Assembly: GCF_947623445.1 (NCBI RefSeq)
Contig: NC_135244.1
Location: 13,950,860 to 14,014,859, forward strand
Reading direction: 5' to 3'
Source of the DNA: Clavelina lepadiformis
Lineage: Eukaryota; Chordata; Ascidiacea; Aplousobranchia; Clavelinidae
Length of the DNA stretch: 64,000 bases
Below, piece after piece: positions 28,885 through 46,777 of this stretch (the first letter of the stretch is position 1; every line of letters starts with the position of its first letter). The notes under the pieces were generated by a model. It searched no databases, had not been told where the DNA came from, and worked only from the letters and a program-made list of their open reading frames with translations. A program made the position numbers and the translations under genes.

Positions 28885-29747
28885 GTCTACATGGCTAGAT
28901 GCCTAAGTTGCAAGTATGAAGTATCCTTGCATACTTAGGGGTAATAGCAGTAAATAACTGAAAATAGATAGGCTATATCCCGAAATCACTGCATCCAATG
29001 ACAAGATTTGTACACAACATTTCTTATTGTAGATGTTACCGTAGCGTAAAATTAATTCGAAGATTCTGGGATTCTTTAGTTATAAACATCATATTTTCGA
29101 AATAGTGAGCCTGAAAGTTTTCTGAAAGGAGCTAACATTACACAATGAACTTCAGCGAAGACACGGTCTCCGACGAGTGCAAGTACGCTCTTTATACATT
29201 TCGAAATCATTTCAACGACTTTAGCTTTAAGAAAGTTTTGCGTTGTTTGCAAACCCGTTTTTGCTTTCTATATCACCCATTGCAAGCTCTAGCGTAACCT
29301 GTAAGTAAAAAAAAACATCCATTTCACACAAAATGAGGATTTCTTTGTATTACCCAACAGTTCAATATACTGCACATTTTAATACGGACTGCATAGCGAA
29401 ATGGCTGCGTTCATTAAGAAACAAAATTAAATATATTGCAACAATTACAATATCGACAAATTGTACGTAAAAATCAATCATAAAGAATGCATTGGCGCAA
29501 TAAGCGAATCTGGCAAAAAGATAACACACAATACTAACACAAAATTTATGGTTCACCCTGACACAACTAACAAAAAACACAATTATTGAAAGCATTTGGA
29601 TACGATAGTAATAGCAGGGTTCAAACAAGCAACAAATTTGCAATAATAAATACGAGGTTTCAATACAAATTAAATTCAGACGATTTGTTTTCAACATCAG
29701 GCCTATCTCCAACACAATTATTTTCACAAGTACCTTAAACATTCCAG
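28885..29747. other. Non-coding DNA
   Basis: No gene was recognised. Short open frames on the minus strand (for example 29362-29742) translate to Cys/Tyr/Leu-rich low-complexity peptides with no domain. The segment includes the 3' flank of the minus-strand dehydrogenase gene. Confidence 0.4.
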
Positions 29748-32680: not shown

Positions 32681-34542
32681 ATTTATTAAATTTGAACAGA
32701 AAGTTTACACCAAAAATACTATTACTCAGGAATTATGACAAACCTTAAGAACATAAAGTATGCACATTAAACAGTAACATAAATTAAAAAGTTTTAAATA
32801 TACAACATGTAAATGCTGAAATTTTGCTGTGATACAGAAATTCCGATGCACAAAAAAATTTAGGTACTTATTTTCCTTGGTTAAAATTTTTAGGACCTAC
32901 CTTTTTTCTACATCTAAAATTTTACTAAGATAATGTTGACCTCTATATAGGCCTACTGTACAATCAACTTTAGCTAGTCTTTGTATTGGAAGCATTAGAT
33001 ATTTCCATACTTAAACAATAAAAAAAAACAGCACCATGAACTTGGTAAAAGCAATCAAACTGCAGGCAGATACATAATTTTTTTGGCTAACCAGTTTTGC
33101 ACAGTAATAAGCTTGGTTAAATATTTTTCTACAATCAGCTACTCGGTCTCCTTGTTCTTCTTCAATTATTGGAGAAACTAATGTAGCCCACCGGCCCAGC
33201 CAACAACAACAAAACACTACACCAAAAGTTTAAAAGTTAGATGAAAATGTTCTTGCAACAACTGCTGTTGTAACTTTCTTCACTCATTGTGAAATATTTA
33301 TAAAAAAAAACAGAAGAATAAATCTACTACATAATGGCTTGAACGTTTTATGGTAAAACTAATAAAAACAGTATTAAGAGTTGTAAATCACACAATGGAA
33401 AGAACTGTCCTTAAGCACCATCCTTATCTAACCTACCTAGAGCTCAGAGTTTACCATTGCCCAAAGATGGTACCGTAAGTTACTATAACACAATAGTTTG
33501 ATAGATTTTTACATTGTTCATTTCCTTTCTGTGCTTGGTACAGATATATTAAAGTGTATTAAGTCTATGTCAGCCTTACTAACGAAATTCCTATGCAGTT
33601 CAAAATTAGATAAAAGTTTGTATTCACATTTGGTAGAAATTATTGGCTGATAACTGAAATGTAACTTTGCATATGTTTTCACTCATCATCACGTTTCTTC
33701 TTGGGCAGCATACAAATGTGGCCTTTATAAGCACCTAATCTAGCACCAGTTATTACTTATTTGTGTGTATCAAAATGATCGGTAAAAAAACTCTTGTACG
33801 ACATTGACAATGCATAAAAGACCAATGATATCTTTAGTAGCTGAAGTTTCAAATTTTCTGGCCAATAAAAAACAAAACATCATTTCGTTCTGCCAGTAAA
33901 AATGAAATCTTTTTCAGAGAAAATTCTACATCTATGTGAACTACTTTACAGTGTAACTTTGCAAAAACTACTTTTTGACTGAGCAACGCTGTACTTATTG
34001 TAACGACTTATCATTTGTTGTGACTTGCATGCACTTGAGTTCGGCTAATAAAGAATTTCATTTCCTTTAGTACTGATGTTATTTAGCTGTGTGACTGGGA
34101 AGGAACCAGGATTGAAAAATGTTTTTATATTTTAAGTACCGCTAGTCAAGAAACACCTCATTACACAGGAAGACATCTATTTCGCTTCTTTTCCGATAAG
34201 TTATTAGAAATTAGTTTTTTATTGATGTTAATCTCTATCTAGTCTACTCAATGTTGTACCAACGTTTTCAATGACATTGGTTGATCCAACCAGTTATGCT
34301 GCATTTTATTTAAGCTCAACTTCCTCTGCGATCAGGAAAACGTTCCCTGGCTTTAAACATACTTCTTTACACTTTGCAAGTCCTGTATGACATCATATTT
34401 ATCACAACTTAAACAGAAAAAAATTAACTTTTTACGTACATAAACAATACGTACGGTATTATTTTGCAAACAAAAGTAACAAATACAATAATGACCCAAA
34501 AGCAAAGCTATTAAAGCAATTATAAAATATCAGTTTTCATGT
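32681..34542. other. Intergenic DNA between PDCD7 and the dehydrogenase gene
   Basis: About 1.9 kb without a gene. Its right part is the 3' untranslated region of PDCD7 on the minus strand; AATAAA signals on that strand at about 34305-34310 and 34215 could end the transcript. The left part should hold the dehydrogenase promoter. A minus-strand open frame at 33011-33217 has no support. Confidence 0.45.
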
Positions 34543-34562
34543 AAAGGATACAAAAAGGATAC
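34543..34562 (-). promoter_or_regulatory. Tandem U12-type 5' splice-site motifs in the PDCD7 3'UTR (candidate U11-binding element)
   Basis: On the minus strand the sequence reads GTATCCTTT-TT-GTATCCTTT, two perfect matches to the U12-type 5' splice-site consensus RTATCCTTT. They start 35 bases after the PDCD7 stop codon. In vertebrates the genes for the U11-48K and U11/U12-65K proteins carry such tandem pairs (called USSE), which bind U11 snRNP and activate an upstream 3' splice site to give unproductive mRNA. The gene here encodes the U11-59K protein, so an equivalent feedback element is a strong inference. No matching downstream U12 3' splice site is needed for that role. Confidence 0.7.
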
Positions 34563-34596
34563 AATGAACAATAAATCTTTCCAAGTCCTGATGCTA

Positions 34597-37500
34597 TCAT
34601 GAAACCAGTTCGCCTGACAGTGGGTATTCCTTCACAGAGTCTTCTTTAACCTGATATATTTCCCAGTCTTCCGAAGATGGTTCAAATGGTTCAACCCAAC
34701 CAGTAGGAATGGCAGTGCCATCCTTGTGCAAAAATTGATCCCATTGATGCCTATTAAGATGCTTTAGGGTAAGGCTTCTGGATTTGATTTAACTTTTTGT
34801 TCTGTCACACTTTGACAACATTATCGATTTCAAATTAACAGTACTGTTCGTAATTTAAGTTTCAATATTTGTTCAGCCAGCATGTAGAGAAAATACCTGC
34901 ACTCCACAAGGTTCTGAAGACTGGCATTAGCTTGATGATGTAGCTGTTGCACTGGCCATAAAGGATCAAAAGGATCCCTTTTAACTGTATTTTAAATAAT
35001 ATCAATAGTTTTAGTTTTGCAACAGAAATTAACGGAAAAACTGTGATTAAAAAAACTGAACCAGTAGCTTTGTGTAAAAATAATGTATAGCCAACAAAAA
35101 TAAACATTAGATTAGAATACCTACACAGATATGGTTTACACAGTTCAATATAAAGTTAAGCAGTTATCATTGATCATAAGGTCATTGACACTTACCTTCT
35201 TTGCCAAACAGTGATATTTTTCTTTTCTGCTCCCATGATTTTCTTTGCACATCAATCATTTTCTTCTGCCTCTTTTCCATGGAAAGCTTTGTTTGTTTTT
35301 GGTTTGTTTCAATGATTTGAGTCAAGGAAGCAATCTTGTCAGCACACAATCGCTTGTGTGAAAGCAAGACAGCATTCACATTTTTCACAGTTTCATCGAA
35401 TCCATCAACTACTGAATACTCTGAGATGTTTAAGTAGAAAAAATCATGACATTGCATTATTTTAACAGCATGAAACATAGTTTAAAAAGAATTTTAACAT
35501 ATTATAATAATTTCGCCTATCGGTTCCAAAAGCACGTATCAGTGACGTCACTTCATCAGTTGATATTTTTAGGGTAGATCAAGAAAACAAAAAAAAATTA
35601 ACAAATATATATCACATTTTGTTATACATGTTTGCACTTCAGGATAACTAGCATTTGCATCATTTAATTACTTTCCAAGCAGTGTTTGCACAGGGCACCA
35701 TTTTGAAGACCAAGAAAGAAACACAACCAAAGCAGGACCTAAACGTACATAGGCCTATATGAGGCTGAAAAAGATTCAAATCGATGATTCAACAAAAATA
35801 TTAAATATTAACTTTAAATTTTTTGCTATTACTCTGTCGTTTGGTCTTTTGGTCAAGCTTTGACCTTACTGCATACTTGGTTTTCTGGTGTTTGCACATT
35901 TACATCTCAATTTACATCTAGTATGTTATTAAAAACCTTTTTCTTTTGCAGAATTAACCCGAACCGTTCTCAGTTTGGCAATAGCATTGATGAACTCCAT
36001 AGCTTTACCAAAGGTGGTTTGCTCTTTGCGAAGTTCATGTAATGTGTTATCCATCTGTTTTTTCATCTCCTCATTCTAATATGTAATTCATAAAATAGAG
36101 TGGGTAGAGTCGAAATACGTGTTACTCATGTTTGTTACTTATGTTCTTCTTCAGATCAACTGTTTAAATAAATGCATGATATCAAATTGTTGTCTGTCTG
36201 TCAAATGCAGACTGTATCGTCTGCATAATCTCATTATTGTATAAGTCTGGTATGGTTTATTTCACACATGTGTCTGGCACATTGTTATACCTTATCTATA
36301 GTAACCTCAAACGACTATTGTTGTTTGATTGCACCGTGGACTTTTCATTTGCGACAACTTCCGAATGAAGCCCTTCTAATACTGTAACAATTTGATATCA
36401 TGCATTTATTTAAACATTTGCTATGATAAGAATGTTCGAGACTAGTTGGCCAATAAAATTATGAATCTGCCTGCAGTTTGTTTGCTTTTAGCAACTTCAT
36501 GGTAATTCATAAAACAGGAAACGATCAAGATTTAGTTCAGATCAGTGACTTGATTAGCCAAAGACAATAGAAAAGACAAATTCACAAACTTACTTGTAAC
36601 TGTTGTTGAAATTTCACTTTTTCTTGTTTCTGCCATTCAGCAATGTGCATGTTTCTCTCATCCATCCTTATTTTTTCAAGTACTTTATGTTTATAATAAG
36701 TTTGTCTGCATTTCTTTCTCCTTGCACGGGCCTTCTTTCTCTTATTAAGCTTGAGTTGTAAATCTTTTATGACATCAGGAGTACTGAGTTGAGACAAAAT
36801 CTTCTGCAACTCTTCCTGCATTGGCGAAAAGAATGAGAATTTAACAAAATTTGAGTTTAAATAACTGTATATTTCACAAATATCAAAAACATTATAACTT
36901 TAAAGAAAGTGCTTACTAACTGTTGCAAAGGTAATCACTAGGGCGATTATTTTTTGACCTAAAAATTGAAAATTTTGACATTAAAAAACTTTTTTTTGAC
37001 AAATTTTGAAGTATGAATATTTCAAGTAGTTAAATTACCCATTATTGTACAAAAAGTTGAAATTTATTGTAGTAAAGAAGGGCAAAAATCTGAACACAGA
37101 CCTAGCCTATTCTGAAAAGGGAAATGAGCTAATTACAAATCACTGCCAAAAAAAACTGCAACTAAAACACAACAAAAAATGTTCAATACATTTGTCTAAA
37201 CCAGTGATTCCCAACCGCGGCTCTTAGAGCCGCATGCGGTACCAAGCTAGCCTTCTTGCGGCTCTCATTGACCCCTGAAAATCCCTCAAAAGTTATAAAA
37301 AATCTATTTATAATAATCAGGGCGATTATTTTTTGACTTGTCAGTTGGAATTGGAGTCAAGTTGGACATTAAATCGATTTGTGTTATTTTTCTTGTTAGT
37401 GTTGCTATTCGTTGGCACATGCTGTCATGCTTTAAAATTTTCGTTCTAATTACTTGAGTGTTTTCATGCGGCTCCATACGTACTCTGAAGTTTGAAATTC

Positions 37501-39625
37501 GGCCCCGACACCAAAAAAGGTTGGGAACAACTGGTCTAAACAAAAGATACGTGAAGTATCTAAAGCAAAACCGAAGCAAGAGCTGATTCACAAAAAGTAG
37601 ACAATGGGCCATTTACAATAGTATAAAGTAGGCTGCAAGGTGTACAGTGTAAAATGACAAGTTCACATACAGTGCAACCTCTATGACACCACGAAAATGC
37701 AGTTTGTAAGCAATTTTGACTTTTTAAAAAATTTTGACAATTTTTGACCTAACGCTGTAAATTTGAAAAATTTTTGACTTTTTTTGACAAGTCAAAAAAT
37801 AATCGCCCTAGTAATCACTAATCAGTACAAGCAGTTTGATAAACTTACAAGTACAAACTAACTCGTCAAAAAAATGCACATTCTAATACCAGATACTAGA
37901 AAACAACTTAACACTGAACAGGTCAACAACGTAACGCACAAATGAAGGAAGAAGACCAACTCATGGAAGTGTGACATTAAGTAACTACCTCAGCAGTGAA
38001 GAGTTAAGGTGCCTGCACACTGGATCTGATTCCATAAAAACCGTTATTAGTAATGACTTGCAGAAGCTTGCGTTGCGATCACATGCAATTTTGTCTGTAC
38101 ACTGTATGTGATTGCCACACATCAACGCATTCGCAAGCAACTACACTGATAAAAATATGTTTGTTTTTTTTCCGCATCACCACATGCCATTCAAGATTAT
38201 ATACTTGACATACTGGTACTGTACATTGGTTGCATCCAGTATACAGGCACCTTAACGAAGATTTATACATGGACAGATAAAGAAGACACTATAAGTACTA
38301 CATGGTAGAATTAAGAGAAACAGCAGCAATAACAGAAAACCTAACTAAAGTTAACAGCATGGAACTAAAAACTAACATTAACAATAATGAAAAAAGGTTT
38401 GATGTATTAATGGATAAAAGTGTAATAGATGAATCAAATCAAAGACAATATTATAGGCAAATATCAACTATTATTATTGTTATTCGAATCTTGGGATTCA
38501 AGCTGAATCCTTTAATTTATAGAAGGTAACAATTTAATACAAGAGCGTTCAAGTTTTGATAGTGATAAAGATAGTGTCATGGTAGTGATAATTATCAATA
38601 AATTCGTATAAACGAAAAACAGATTGATTTGTTTCTTTACCGAACAAGATGACAAGTTTAAAAACCATTTCCTTGCTCATCAGACACCTTGGTTACGTGA
38701 AATGATCAATGATACCAGATTTGGAAATGCACGAATAACAAAACCTATTATTTGAGTTCTCACCAATCTCAGTGTCTAGTAGTAACTGACTAAGCAACTC
38801 TATCTTGTGCAAACCAACCTTATCAGTGCCACACTCATTCCAGTTGAATAAAATGATAATTGGACAAAATAACACAACAAAAATTACCCGTATTTTTTTT
38901 GATTCATCACTTTGGAAAAAAGTTTCTGAGGCACCTTCCAAGGTAGACAAAAGTGATCTTGCTCTTTGATGCAAGTCTTTGGCTTCACAAATCTATAGGT
39001 GGTAAATAAATGGATACAGATATCAGTTCTGATATAACACTTATGTACTAAAAAGATTTAAAATTACCTTTAGTGTCAAGTTACTTGATTCTTTTTTATT
39101 GGTTGACATTGAAGCGGGTAAAGCTTGGATGTGGTTCATGAATTTTCCACGTTCTTTTAAAAAACGTTCCACAACCATCTTATCATTTGCATTATTATGA
39201 TTTAGATTTTCACATGCTGTCTTCAACCCAACTCCAGGTTGGTGAGGTTGTCTTTCGTTCTTGTAAAAGGCAGCATGTGGAGGATGAAATGGCTGATGTG
39301 ATGACATTCCATAAGTTGATGCCCAGGGTGGTAAAGGTGGACATGGTGGTCTAACATGCTGCCACAGTGGTCTTGGCACGCGAGGCGCTGCTGAGAAGGG
39401 ATTTCGAGGAGCATGAAAAGGGCTAAGACAGTTGGAACCTTGATGAAACACATCTGAACAATACTGCCCTTGAAAATTTGAGTGAAAATTGGTTCCAGGA
39501 ACATTGGCAGGGTTACTAACAATTGGAGGTTGGTGCCATGCAAAAAAATTTTCATTTTGTTGATTTGAATTCCAACCCATAACTTCAGGCCTAGGGTTGG
39601 ATGTGTTTCCAAACTGTTTTGCCAT
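34597..39625 (-). CDS. PDCD7: PDCD7, U11/U12 snRNP 59K protein
   Basis: Minor-spliceosome component that bridges U11-48K to the U11/U12 particle (known for the family). Exons: 39625-39068, 38992-38888, 38818-38764 (left edge may be 38803), 36811-36594, 36075-35937, 35420-35196, 34984-34897 and 34750-34597; about 513 aa. Exon 1 encodes a Pro/His/Asn-rich N-terminus (PPCPPLPPW), as in human PDCD7. The middle is a Lys/Arg/Glu-rich coiled coil (KLNKRKKARARRKKCRQ; ELRKEQTTFGKAMEFINAIAKL). The C-terminus has SLFGKEVKRDPFDPLWPVQQ and RHQWDQFL...GTAIPTGWVEP, collinear with human LFGDPDEFPLAHLLEP and RHDWDQYL...VPQGWVLP. Weak points: exon 3 is short, and frame requires the second AG (36812) for exon 4. 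The donor after exon 5 is GTTTTT. The 1.9-kb intron 3 has filled with three transposons. Confidence 0.88.
36939..37810. mobile_element. hAT-type element in PDCD7 intron 3
   Basis: Ends TAGGGCGATTATTTTTTGAC and its inverse complement, 20 bp perfect, flanked by the 8-bp duplication GTAATCAC (36931-36938 and 37811-37818). Subterminal DNA is rich in TTTTTGAC words. No transposase frame is seen. It carries a second element at 37202-37533. Without that insert it is about 530 bp. Confidence 0.88.
37202..37533. mobile_element. Small hAT-type element nested in another hAT
   Basis: Begins CAGTGATTCCCAACC and ends with the inverse of CAGTTGTTCCCAACC (13 of 15 matching). It is flanked by the 8-bp duplication GTCTAAAC (37194-37201 and 37534-37541). 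Its ends resemble the widespread CAGTGGTTCCCAAC class of hAT repeats. At 37318-37337 it contains a copy of the outer element's terminal sequence. Confidence 0.87.
38008..38251. mobile_element. TTAA-flanked miniature inverted-repeat element
   Basis: Inverted ends GGTGCCTGCACACTGGAT and GGTGCCTGTATACTGGAT (16 of 18) lie between TTAA at 38004-38007 and TTAA at 38252-38255. TTAA duplication is the mark of piggyBac transposons, so this is probably a non-autonomous piggyBac-like element. It has no coding potential. Confidence 0.7.
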
Positions 39626-44055: not shown

Positions 44056-44521
44056 TACTATATTTGATAATGCGCAATCCATAACAAATTTACCTCAGTT
44101 GCATTGACCATATTTAGAATATTACCAAAGTACATTGCCGCCATTGCTTTTTTGTGAAAGAAGGATAAACACGAAACTATACACAGAAAGCAAAGAAATG
44201 TTGTATTGCAATACAAGAATGCAAATTCTCTTCTAAACAGTAACATTTATGAAAACGAAAATTAGCATAGAATTTTTTACAAAATACGCTCCAAGCATTA
44301 AACAAACGACAATTTCCTTGGTATTCTCATTTGGTCTGCAACTTCTTGCGTCTGACTTCTTGTTGCACTATTTTTCTACTGCTTTATAATTTTCTTCAGC
44401 GAATATACGCTCTTATCGTTTCAGACATGTTCTAAATTTTGCAATATCGACCAAGATATAAGGCCTTCAGCTACTAGCCTAGCTCCACTCATCCATGTAT
44501 CATTGTATCCCAAATGGTGGT

Positions 44522-44868
44522 CGGACGATTCAACCCACGGACGATTCAACCCCGGACGATTCAACCCACGGACGATTCAACCCAGGACCATTCAACCCAG
44601 GACGATTCAACCCACGGACGGTTCAACCCGCGGACGATTCAACCCGCGGACCATTCAACCCGCGGACGATTCAACCCACGGACGATTCAACCCGCGGACC
44701 ATTCAACCCGCGGACGATTCAACCCGCGGACGATTCAACCCACGGACGATTCAACCCCGGACGATTCAACCCCGGACGATTCAACCCGCGGACGATTCAA
44801 CCCACGGACGATTCAACCCACGGACGATTCAACCCAGGACGATTCAACCCACGGGCGATTTAACCCAT
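44522..44868 (+). repeat. Left minisatellite array of the MULE
   Basis: About 22 head-to-tail units of GGACGATTCAACCC plus a 1-2 base joint (C, AC, GC or A). Variants GGACCATTC and GGACGGTTC alternate with the main form. No plus-strand stop arises in the unit, so long open frames appear in all three frames; they are artefacts. Confidence 0.95.
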
Positions 44869-45703: not shown

Positions 45704-46257
45704 TTAATTACCGTTTGTAGTACCCTTTTCAGCTTTGTGTTTTATACGTGCTGTGTTTGTGTTCAGGTTCATGTTCTTAAGCTTGCCTGTAAATAAAACA
45801 ACTTTCTTTCTAATTAATCGATGTATAAACAGGTGTCTATAAAAATATCTGTAATTTGTGTACATGCAAAAAAATAAATACACACATTTACGTACGTGGG
45901 TCGAAAGCATTTTGTCTTTTCAAAAACTTCAAAAATGTTAACTTAATGCTAAAAGGAGAACATTTTATATAATAACCGATCTACACGGGTAAATACAAAA
46001 AATAATAGCTGGCGTAGACAGAAATGTACGCAAAGTACTGTATAGGGCAAAATAACAATATTCAAGGTTTTACTGGAAAGCAGAAAACAATAAGTGTTTT
46101 GATGTACAACCAATGCTAACAAGAAGTGGTAAAAGAAAAAAAAGGAAACACAAAAAGCTTTATATTAGCTTAGGCCTATATATTAGCTTTATTTAGCTTA
46201 CATAATATTGGCTACAAAGTAACTTGGTGATAACCTAAGCCAATAGTACGTGAAAGG

Positions 46258-46572
46258 TCCGTGGGTTGAATCGTCCTAGGTTGAATCGTCCTGGGTTGAA
46301 TCGTCCGTGGGTTGAATCGTCCGCGGGTTGAATAGTCCGGGGTTGAATCGTCCTGGGTTGAATCGTCCATGGGTTGAATCGTCCGCGGGTTGAATCGTCC
46401 GCGGGTTGAATCGTCCGCGGGTTGAATCGTCCGCGGGTTGAATGGTCCGCGGGTTGAATCGTCCGCGGGTTGAACCGTCCGTGGGTTGAATCGTCCTGGG
46501 TTGAATCGTCCTGGGTTGAATCGTCCGCGGGTTGAATCGTCCGGGGTTGAATCGTCCGTGGGTTGAATCGAC
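46258..46572 (-). repeat. Right minisatellite array of the MULE (inverted)
   Basis: About 20 units of the same 15-16-bp sequence in opposite orientation to the left array (reads GGGTTGAATCGTCC on the plus strand). It has the same mix of GGACCATTC and GGACGGTTC variants. The two arrays together could form a long imperfect hairpin. Confidence 0.95.
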
Positions 46573-46777
46573 CTGGAACCATCCCAAATATAACGCTGTA
46601 TTGTCGTTTATGACGTAACAATGAAATTATTACCCATCACGCAACAAACAATTTTAAAAAATTCCGGACATTTAAGCATATTTTAGCATTTCCTCCCGGA
46701 CGCAGTTTGAACACTAAAATTCCGGACATGTCCGGGGAAATCCGGACGTATGGCAAGTTGGCAACCCTACAATAGGG

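Follow-up and report, generated by a model that had tools for sequence, protein, structure and literature searches.

The minor-spliceosome gene PDCD7 (U11-59K) of Clavelina lepadiformis carries, just after its stop codon and on its sense strand, two perfect copies of the U12-type 5′ splice-site consensus GTATCCTTT, two bases apart. As a matter of sequence the pair is well established, its placement is striking, and a function can be suggested by analogy with the vertebrate elements known as USSEs. The reading that we favour, with a confidence a shade under even, is that the pair binds U11 snRNP, in the manner of a vertebrate USSE, within what is likely the PDCD7 3′ UTR. If this is real, PDCD7 would be a new gene for an already known kind of element.

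The tandem motif and its position

Copy 1 lies at 34562-34554 and copy 2 at 34551-34543 of the minus strand of the window (the whole stretch of 64,000 nucleotides that was analysed), both identified as sequence matches and separated by two T; the strand around them reads ...TGATAGCATCAGGACTTGGAAAGATTTATTGTTCATTGTATCCTTTTTGTATCCTTTACATG.... Both copies are contained in 34543..34564, where the 11-mer TTGTATCCTTT stands twice in direct succession without a mismatch. An earlier note, made from the letters of the window, had reported such a pair, two bases apart and just downstream of the stop codon of a U11-59K gene, and both observations are borne out, with 34 bases between the stop codon (34599-34597) and the first copy. 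The host gene is PDCD7, as seen from a match to Pfam PF16021 at 1.4e-30 and to the PDCD7 chain 8r7n_D of the PDB at 8.3e-15.

Since the stop codon lies upstream of the pair and the first AATAAA, at 34310, lies downstream of it on the same strand, the pair likely falls inside the 3′ UTR of PDCD7. It stands 188 nt after the start of exon 7, for which there are two candidate acceptors, 188 and 215 nt upstream of the pair, and ~230 nt before the first AATAAA (34305..34310), which is followed by a second at 34218..34223, both of these being signals only. Predicted RNA folding of the 121 nt around the pair was no better than that of shuffled sequences (z +1.24).

The PDCD7 gene

The PDCD7 model, on the minus strand, has seven exons with GT–AG joins and a single open frame, comprising exon 1 from the ATG (39068..39625), exon 2 (38888..38992), exon 3 (36594..36815), exon 4 (35937..36075), exon 5 (35196..35420), exon 6 (34897..34984), which has 88 nt so that its skipping would shift the frame, and the coding part of exon 7 up to the stop codon (34597..34750). 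None of the introns has a U12-type start. A family search of the genome places PDCD7 only here (two matches, both within this gene), and a DNA search of the assembly gave no second copy of its 3′ end.

If exon 7 begins at the 34750 acceptor (TTAATAG), the protein has 496 aa, and this shorter form fits both the human PDCD7 chain and a 495-aa Clavelina lepadiformis protein (P0001), to which it is 96% identical. The 18 differences from this other C. lepadiformis protein all fall at residues 16-219 (exons 1-2, window 38888-39625), and exons 3-7 code for protein identical to that record. A candidate acceptor 27 nt upstream (AATCCAG at 34777), proposed from sequence, would extend exon 7 in frame over 34751..34777 and lengthen the protein by nine residues, SLTLKHLNR, inserted ahead of the conserved HQWDQFL; its use is thus predicted to give an in-frame insert and no dead isoform. 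This acceptor looks unused and is the only one in the gene with a weak pyrimidine stretch (five pyrimidines in 16), while the acceptor at 34750 (nine in 16) is not weaker than the gene's others (8-12).

Two smaller observations concern this end of the gene. Exon 7 contains an exact 9-bp tandem, TTGAACCAT twice, at 34677-34694, which codes for EPFEP, and none of the three ORFs of the next gene downstream of PDCD7 has a Pfam match.

Rarity of the pair

The exact 20-mer occurs once in the 209,060,895-base genome and not at all in the reversed control. A looser pattern, TATCCTTN{0,20}RTATCCTT, was found at 37 or more places, genome counts of repeats being lower bounds, against 44 for the reversed control; because the looser pairs do not exceed the control, they are not in genome-wide excess and only the location of the PDCD7 pair is unusual. 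Among the 37 looser pairs found, the PDCD7 place is the only one with two full RTATCCTTT copies, a comparison for which 30 of the places were checked by locus, five from the printed match letters and two individually. Two copies of TATCCTTTTTGTATCCTT on C4 were dismissed as coincidence: they lie in two near-identical stretches and, on the other strand, were judged by eye to form the end of an apparent coding exon.

For a gene of 5.3 kb such as this one, the probability that a looser pair falls by chance on the sense strand is 37/(2 × 209.06 Mb) × 5336, i.e. ~5e-4, where the 37 pairs already include ones made by duplication; for a set of eight similarly sized U11/U12 protein genes it becomes ~4e-3. 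Some coincidence is to be expected, as the finding was picked after reading. When the window was shuffled, a looser pair appeared in one of 100 shuffles, and two copies of GTATCCTTT anywhere in the window appeared in 14 of 100, with a mean of 0.61 GTATCCTTT per shuffled window; it is the closeness of the copies that is rare, and not the presence of two in a window. Markov simulations of 150,000 sequences of 307 nt gave 1181 sequences with a single site and one with a pair at the composition of the 3′ UTR, and 1354 and one, respectively, at the composition of the gene.

The earlier note had held that a perfect repeat of this kind is unlikely by chance, and had named as a refutation that tandem motifs be equally common in random DNA. 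On the first point, the place of the pair in this gene is indeed improbable by chance, at ~5e-4 even for a looser pair. The second applies in part, the looser pairs showing no enrichment (37 vs 44) and the strict pair being found nowhere else. The interpretation given in the earlier note is supported in part, by the identity of the gene, the form of the motif and this improbable place.

Relation to known USSEs

USSEs have been described in SNRNP48 (U11-48K) and RNPC3 (U11/U12-65K), as tandem U12-type 5′ sites that recruit U11, remain unspliced and switch on an upstream acceptor (PMC8329584, PMC3584512, PMC5473595). The naming of these two genes in the earlier note agrees with a 2019 review, in the relevant part of which they are the only ones where USSEs are said to have been identified (PMC6865273). 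A literature search, covering mostly titles and the first lines of abstracts, gave no report of such an element in PDCD7, and the main text of a 2021 paper with 48 mentions of PDCD7 does not contain USSE, feedback or autoregul- (PMC8034651).

In form, the sequence in PDCD7 matches the known USSEs, being a tandem U12-type 5′ site in what appears to be a non-coding part of a U11/U12 protein gene. RNPC3, likewise a U11/U12 protein gene, has its tandem U12-type 5′ sites in the 3′ UTR as well, where they follow a U2-type acceptor and are not used as donors (PMC5473595, PMC8329584). The present case differs in the gene, which is PDCD7, and in the upstream acceptor: known USSEs turn on an alternative isoform, whereas here the acceptor is the one normally used for the coding sequence, and no known isoform avoids the element. 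SNRNP48 shares the tandem U12-type 5′ sites, with the difference that U11 pairing is known there and assumed here, and that its USSE drives a poison exon (PMC5473595). A further parallel is the cross-regulation of U1C and U1-70K within the U1 snRNP, where snRNP protein levels are likewise tuned via alternative splicing (PMC3798272); it concerns U1 and not U11.

A candidate U11-binding element and its rivals

The proposal of a U11-binding element draws directly on the sequence, gene, orientation, position and genome rarity of the pair, and on a U11 snRNA gene in the same genome (RF00548, 103.5 bits), whose 5′ region reads ACAAAAGGGCU with AAAAGGG near the 5′ end. Predicted duplexes between U11 and the two sites have energies of -5.7 and -5.2 kcal/mol. 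The 3′-UTR sites do not stand out by pairing energy, since other parts of PDCD7 are predicted to pair better with the U11 5′ end, the best at -12.6 kcal/mol (39425-39428).

We envisage that U11/U12 di-snRNP, when plentiful, would pair with the two TATCCTTT sites, and that contacts of the exon-definition kind, made with U2AF on the acceptor of exon 7 (188 nt further upstream), would keep it in place. The output of PDCD7 would then be lowered by nuclear retention of the message, by bypass of the poly(A) site, or by both, as reported for human 65K mRNA; in human cells, the 65K element also retains the mRNA in the nucleus and is linked to read-through (PMC5473595). The opposite, positive effect, in which U11 would help to define exon 7, is also conceivable, and negative feedback is the direction that we favour. 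If such feedback operates, PDCD7 would be the third gene with an element of this kind, after the two known ones, and its protein is a binding partner of 48K as well as of 65K (PMC3584512, table).

The main rival, whose probability we place somewhat below one half, is chance, by which one GTATCCTTT would have arisen in a T-rich 3′ UTR and would then have been doubled by a short tandem duplication, with no role. Slippage is a serious contender because the two copies repeat a single 11-mer exactly, so that one chance site would suffice, and because another exact short tandem, that of TTGAACCAT in exon 7, lies nearby; the near-tandem GATCCTTTTGATCCTTT in exon 6 is a further short repeat at the same end of the gene. 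A single GTATCCTTT is in any case expected 0.61 times per window, and neither the looser pairs nor pairs of the core ATCCTTT, discussed below, exceed their genome controls. Many minor introns have been lost in tunicates (PMC10639083), which also favours chance, and USSEs are absent from Diptera, which are also poor in U12-type introns (PMC3584512). What chance accommodates less easily is the placement, with the probabilities of ~5e-4 and ~4e-3 given above and a strict pair found once, and then in just the sort of gene for which it would be meaningful.

Two further explanations give the pair a different role. Reading it as two UGUA sites for the cleavage factor CFIm, which would tune the choice of poly(A) site, seems to us very unlikely. 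UGUA is the binding motif of CFIm, and TGTA does occur at 34563 and 34552 and, over the 317 nt that follow the stop codon, five times, where 2.75 are expected from composition; this reading leaves the repeated TCCTTT unexplained, and a distance of ~230 nt to the first AATAAA is far for CFIm sites, which usually lie closer to the poly(A) signal. Still more improbable is that a minor (U12-type) intron within the 3′ UTR actually starts at one of the copies. Both copies are perfect as U12-type 5′ sites and a branch-point-like sequence with one mismatch to TTCCTTRAY (TTTCTTGAC) is found at 34153, with AC 9 nt further on, yet the implied GT–AC intron would run past both AATAAA signals and the AG there is just 3 nt away. 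The next branch-point-like match is at 29421, and a count of six over 12 kb shows that chance readily produces them.

A second, weaker pair in exon 6

Another pair, at 34960..34975 (minus strand), lies in the coding sequence of exon 6 and consists of two ATCCTTT cores within the codons for DPFDPL. ATCCTTT corresponds to positions +3 to +9 of the U12-type 5′ site, and the U at +2 is lacking here; the 48K protein contacts +1 to +3 of the 5′ site (PMC7367187). Between 40000 and 28000 the sense strand has the core at five places, four of which form the two pairs in PDCD7, i.e. those in the 3′ UTR and in exon 6. Genome-wide, 13 pairs of ATCCTTT with 1-5 bases between them were found, against 35 in the control, and two of the 13 are in PDCD7; once one such pair is present, the probability that the gene also holds another is ~1.5e-4. 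As the core and the range of gaps were chosen after the exon 6 pair had been seen, we treat this pair as a lead only and do not accept it as a demonstrated second USSE. Protein coding partly explains it: given the peptide DPFDPL, the codon use of PDCD7 itself would yield the pair with a probability of ~0.06. The prolines at both places are common to starfish and eel, and the human chain is without DPFDPL.

Minor-spliceosome genes elsewhere in the genome

Matches to four other proteins of the U11/U12 di-snRNP were found in the genome, namely 48K (C1:14799041), 65K (C8:5522233), 35K (C3:22653038) and 25K (C5:20484450); the genes for 20K, 31K and ZRSR2 were not located. The 37 looser pairs are all more than 2 Mb distant from the 48K, 65K, 35K and 25K matches, the nearest being 2.3 to 6.4 Mb away. 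The 21.9-kb region of 65K has no pair even when one mismatch is allowed in each copy, and its sense strand has a single RTATCCTT, ~2.5 kb past the 65K stop codon. In the 19.8-kb region of 48K, where the 5′ end of the gene was not located, the sense strand is without RTATCCTT, and allowing each copy one mismatch gives no more than three pairs. A degenerate pair in the 48K region (C1:14797781), with a single mismatch per copy, was considered and rejected, as its CC core is broken.

The 48K and 65K genes of this species thus seem to be without the element, and if PDCD7 carries it, the design of the feedback would have been kept while its gene changed; the importance of this design for minor splicing could be tested by comparing tunicates. 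A more far-reaching scenario, which we regard as unlikely, is that in this tunicate lineage the point of self-sensing moved from 48K and 65K to 59K with two U11-complementary pairs. The one at the start of exon 6 would let U11 mask the acceptor and so cause a frame-shifting skip, and the one in the 3′ UTR would define exon 7 and hold the message in the nucleus.

Other observations

The 65K match is a single open frame of 554 aa (L043 3857-5521, on C8), and the coding part of 65K may be intronless in this genome. Ten matches to PF05253, all on C5, were tried as candidates for 48K and discarded: none is the 48K place, and they are paired CHHC fingers. These ten zinc-finger matches form five double units, at 15.9 Mb and 22.9-23.1 Mb of C5 (L032-L039), and represent a local expansion; the paired fingers resemble those of GTSF1.

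Within the window, CGGACGATTCAACCCA and its reverse complement, the two orientations of a 16-bp unit, are repeated in ~22 copies at 44514-44867 and ~20 copies at 46251-46582. The two arrays are inverted arms ~1.6 kb apart and probably belong to a mobile element with tandem-repeat arms, and a translated stretch of L063 on C8 seems to contain this unit too.
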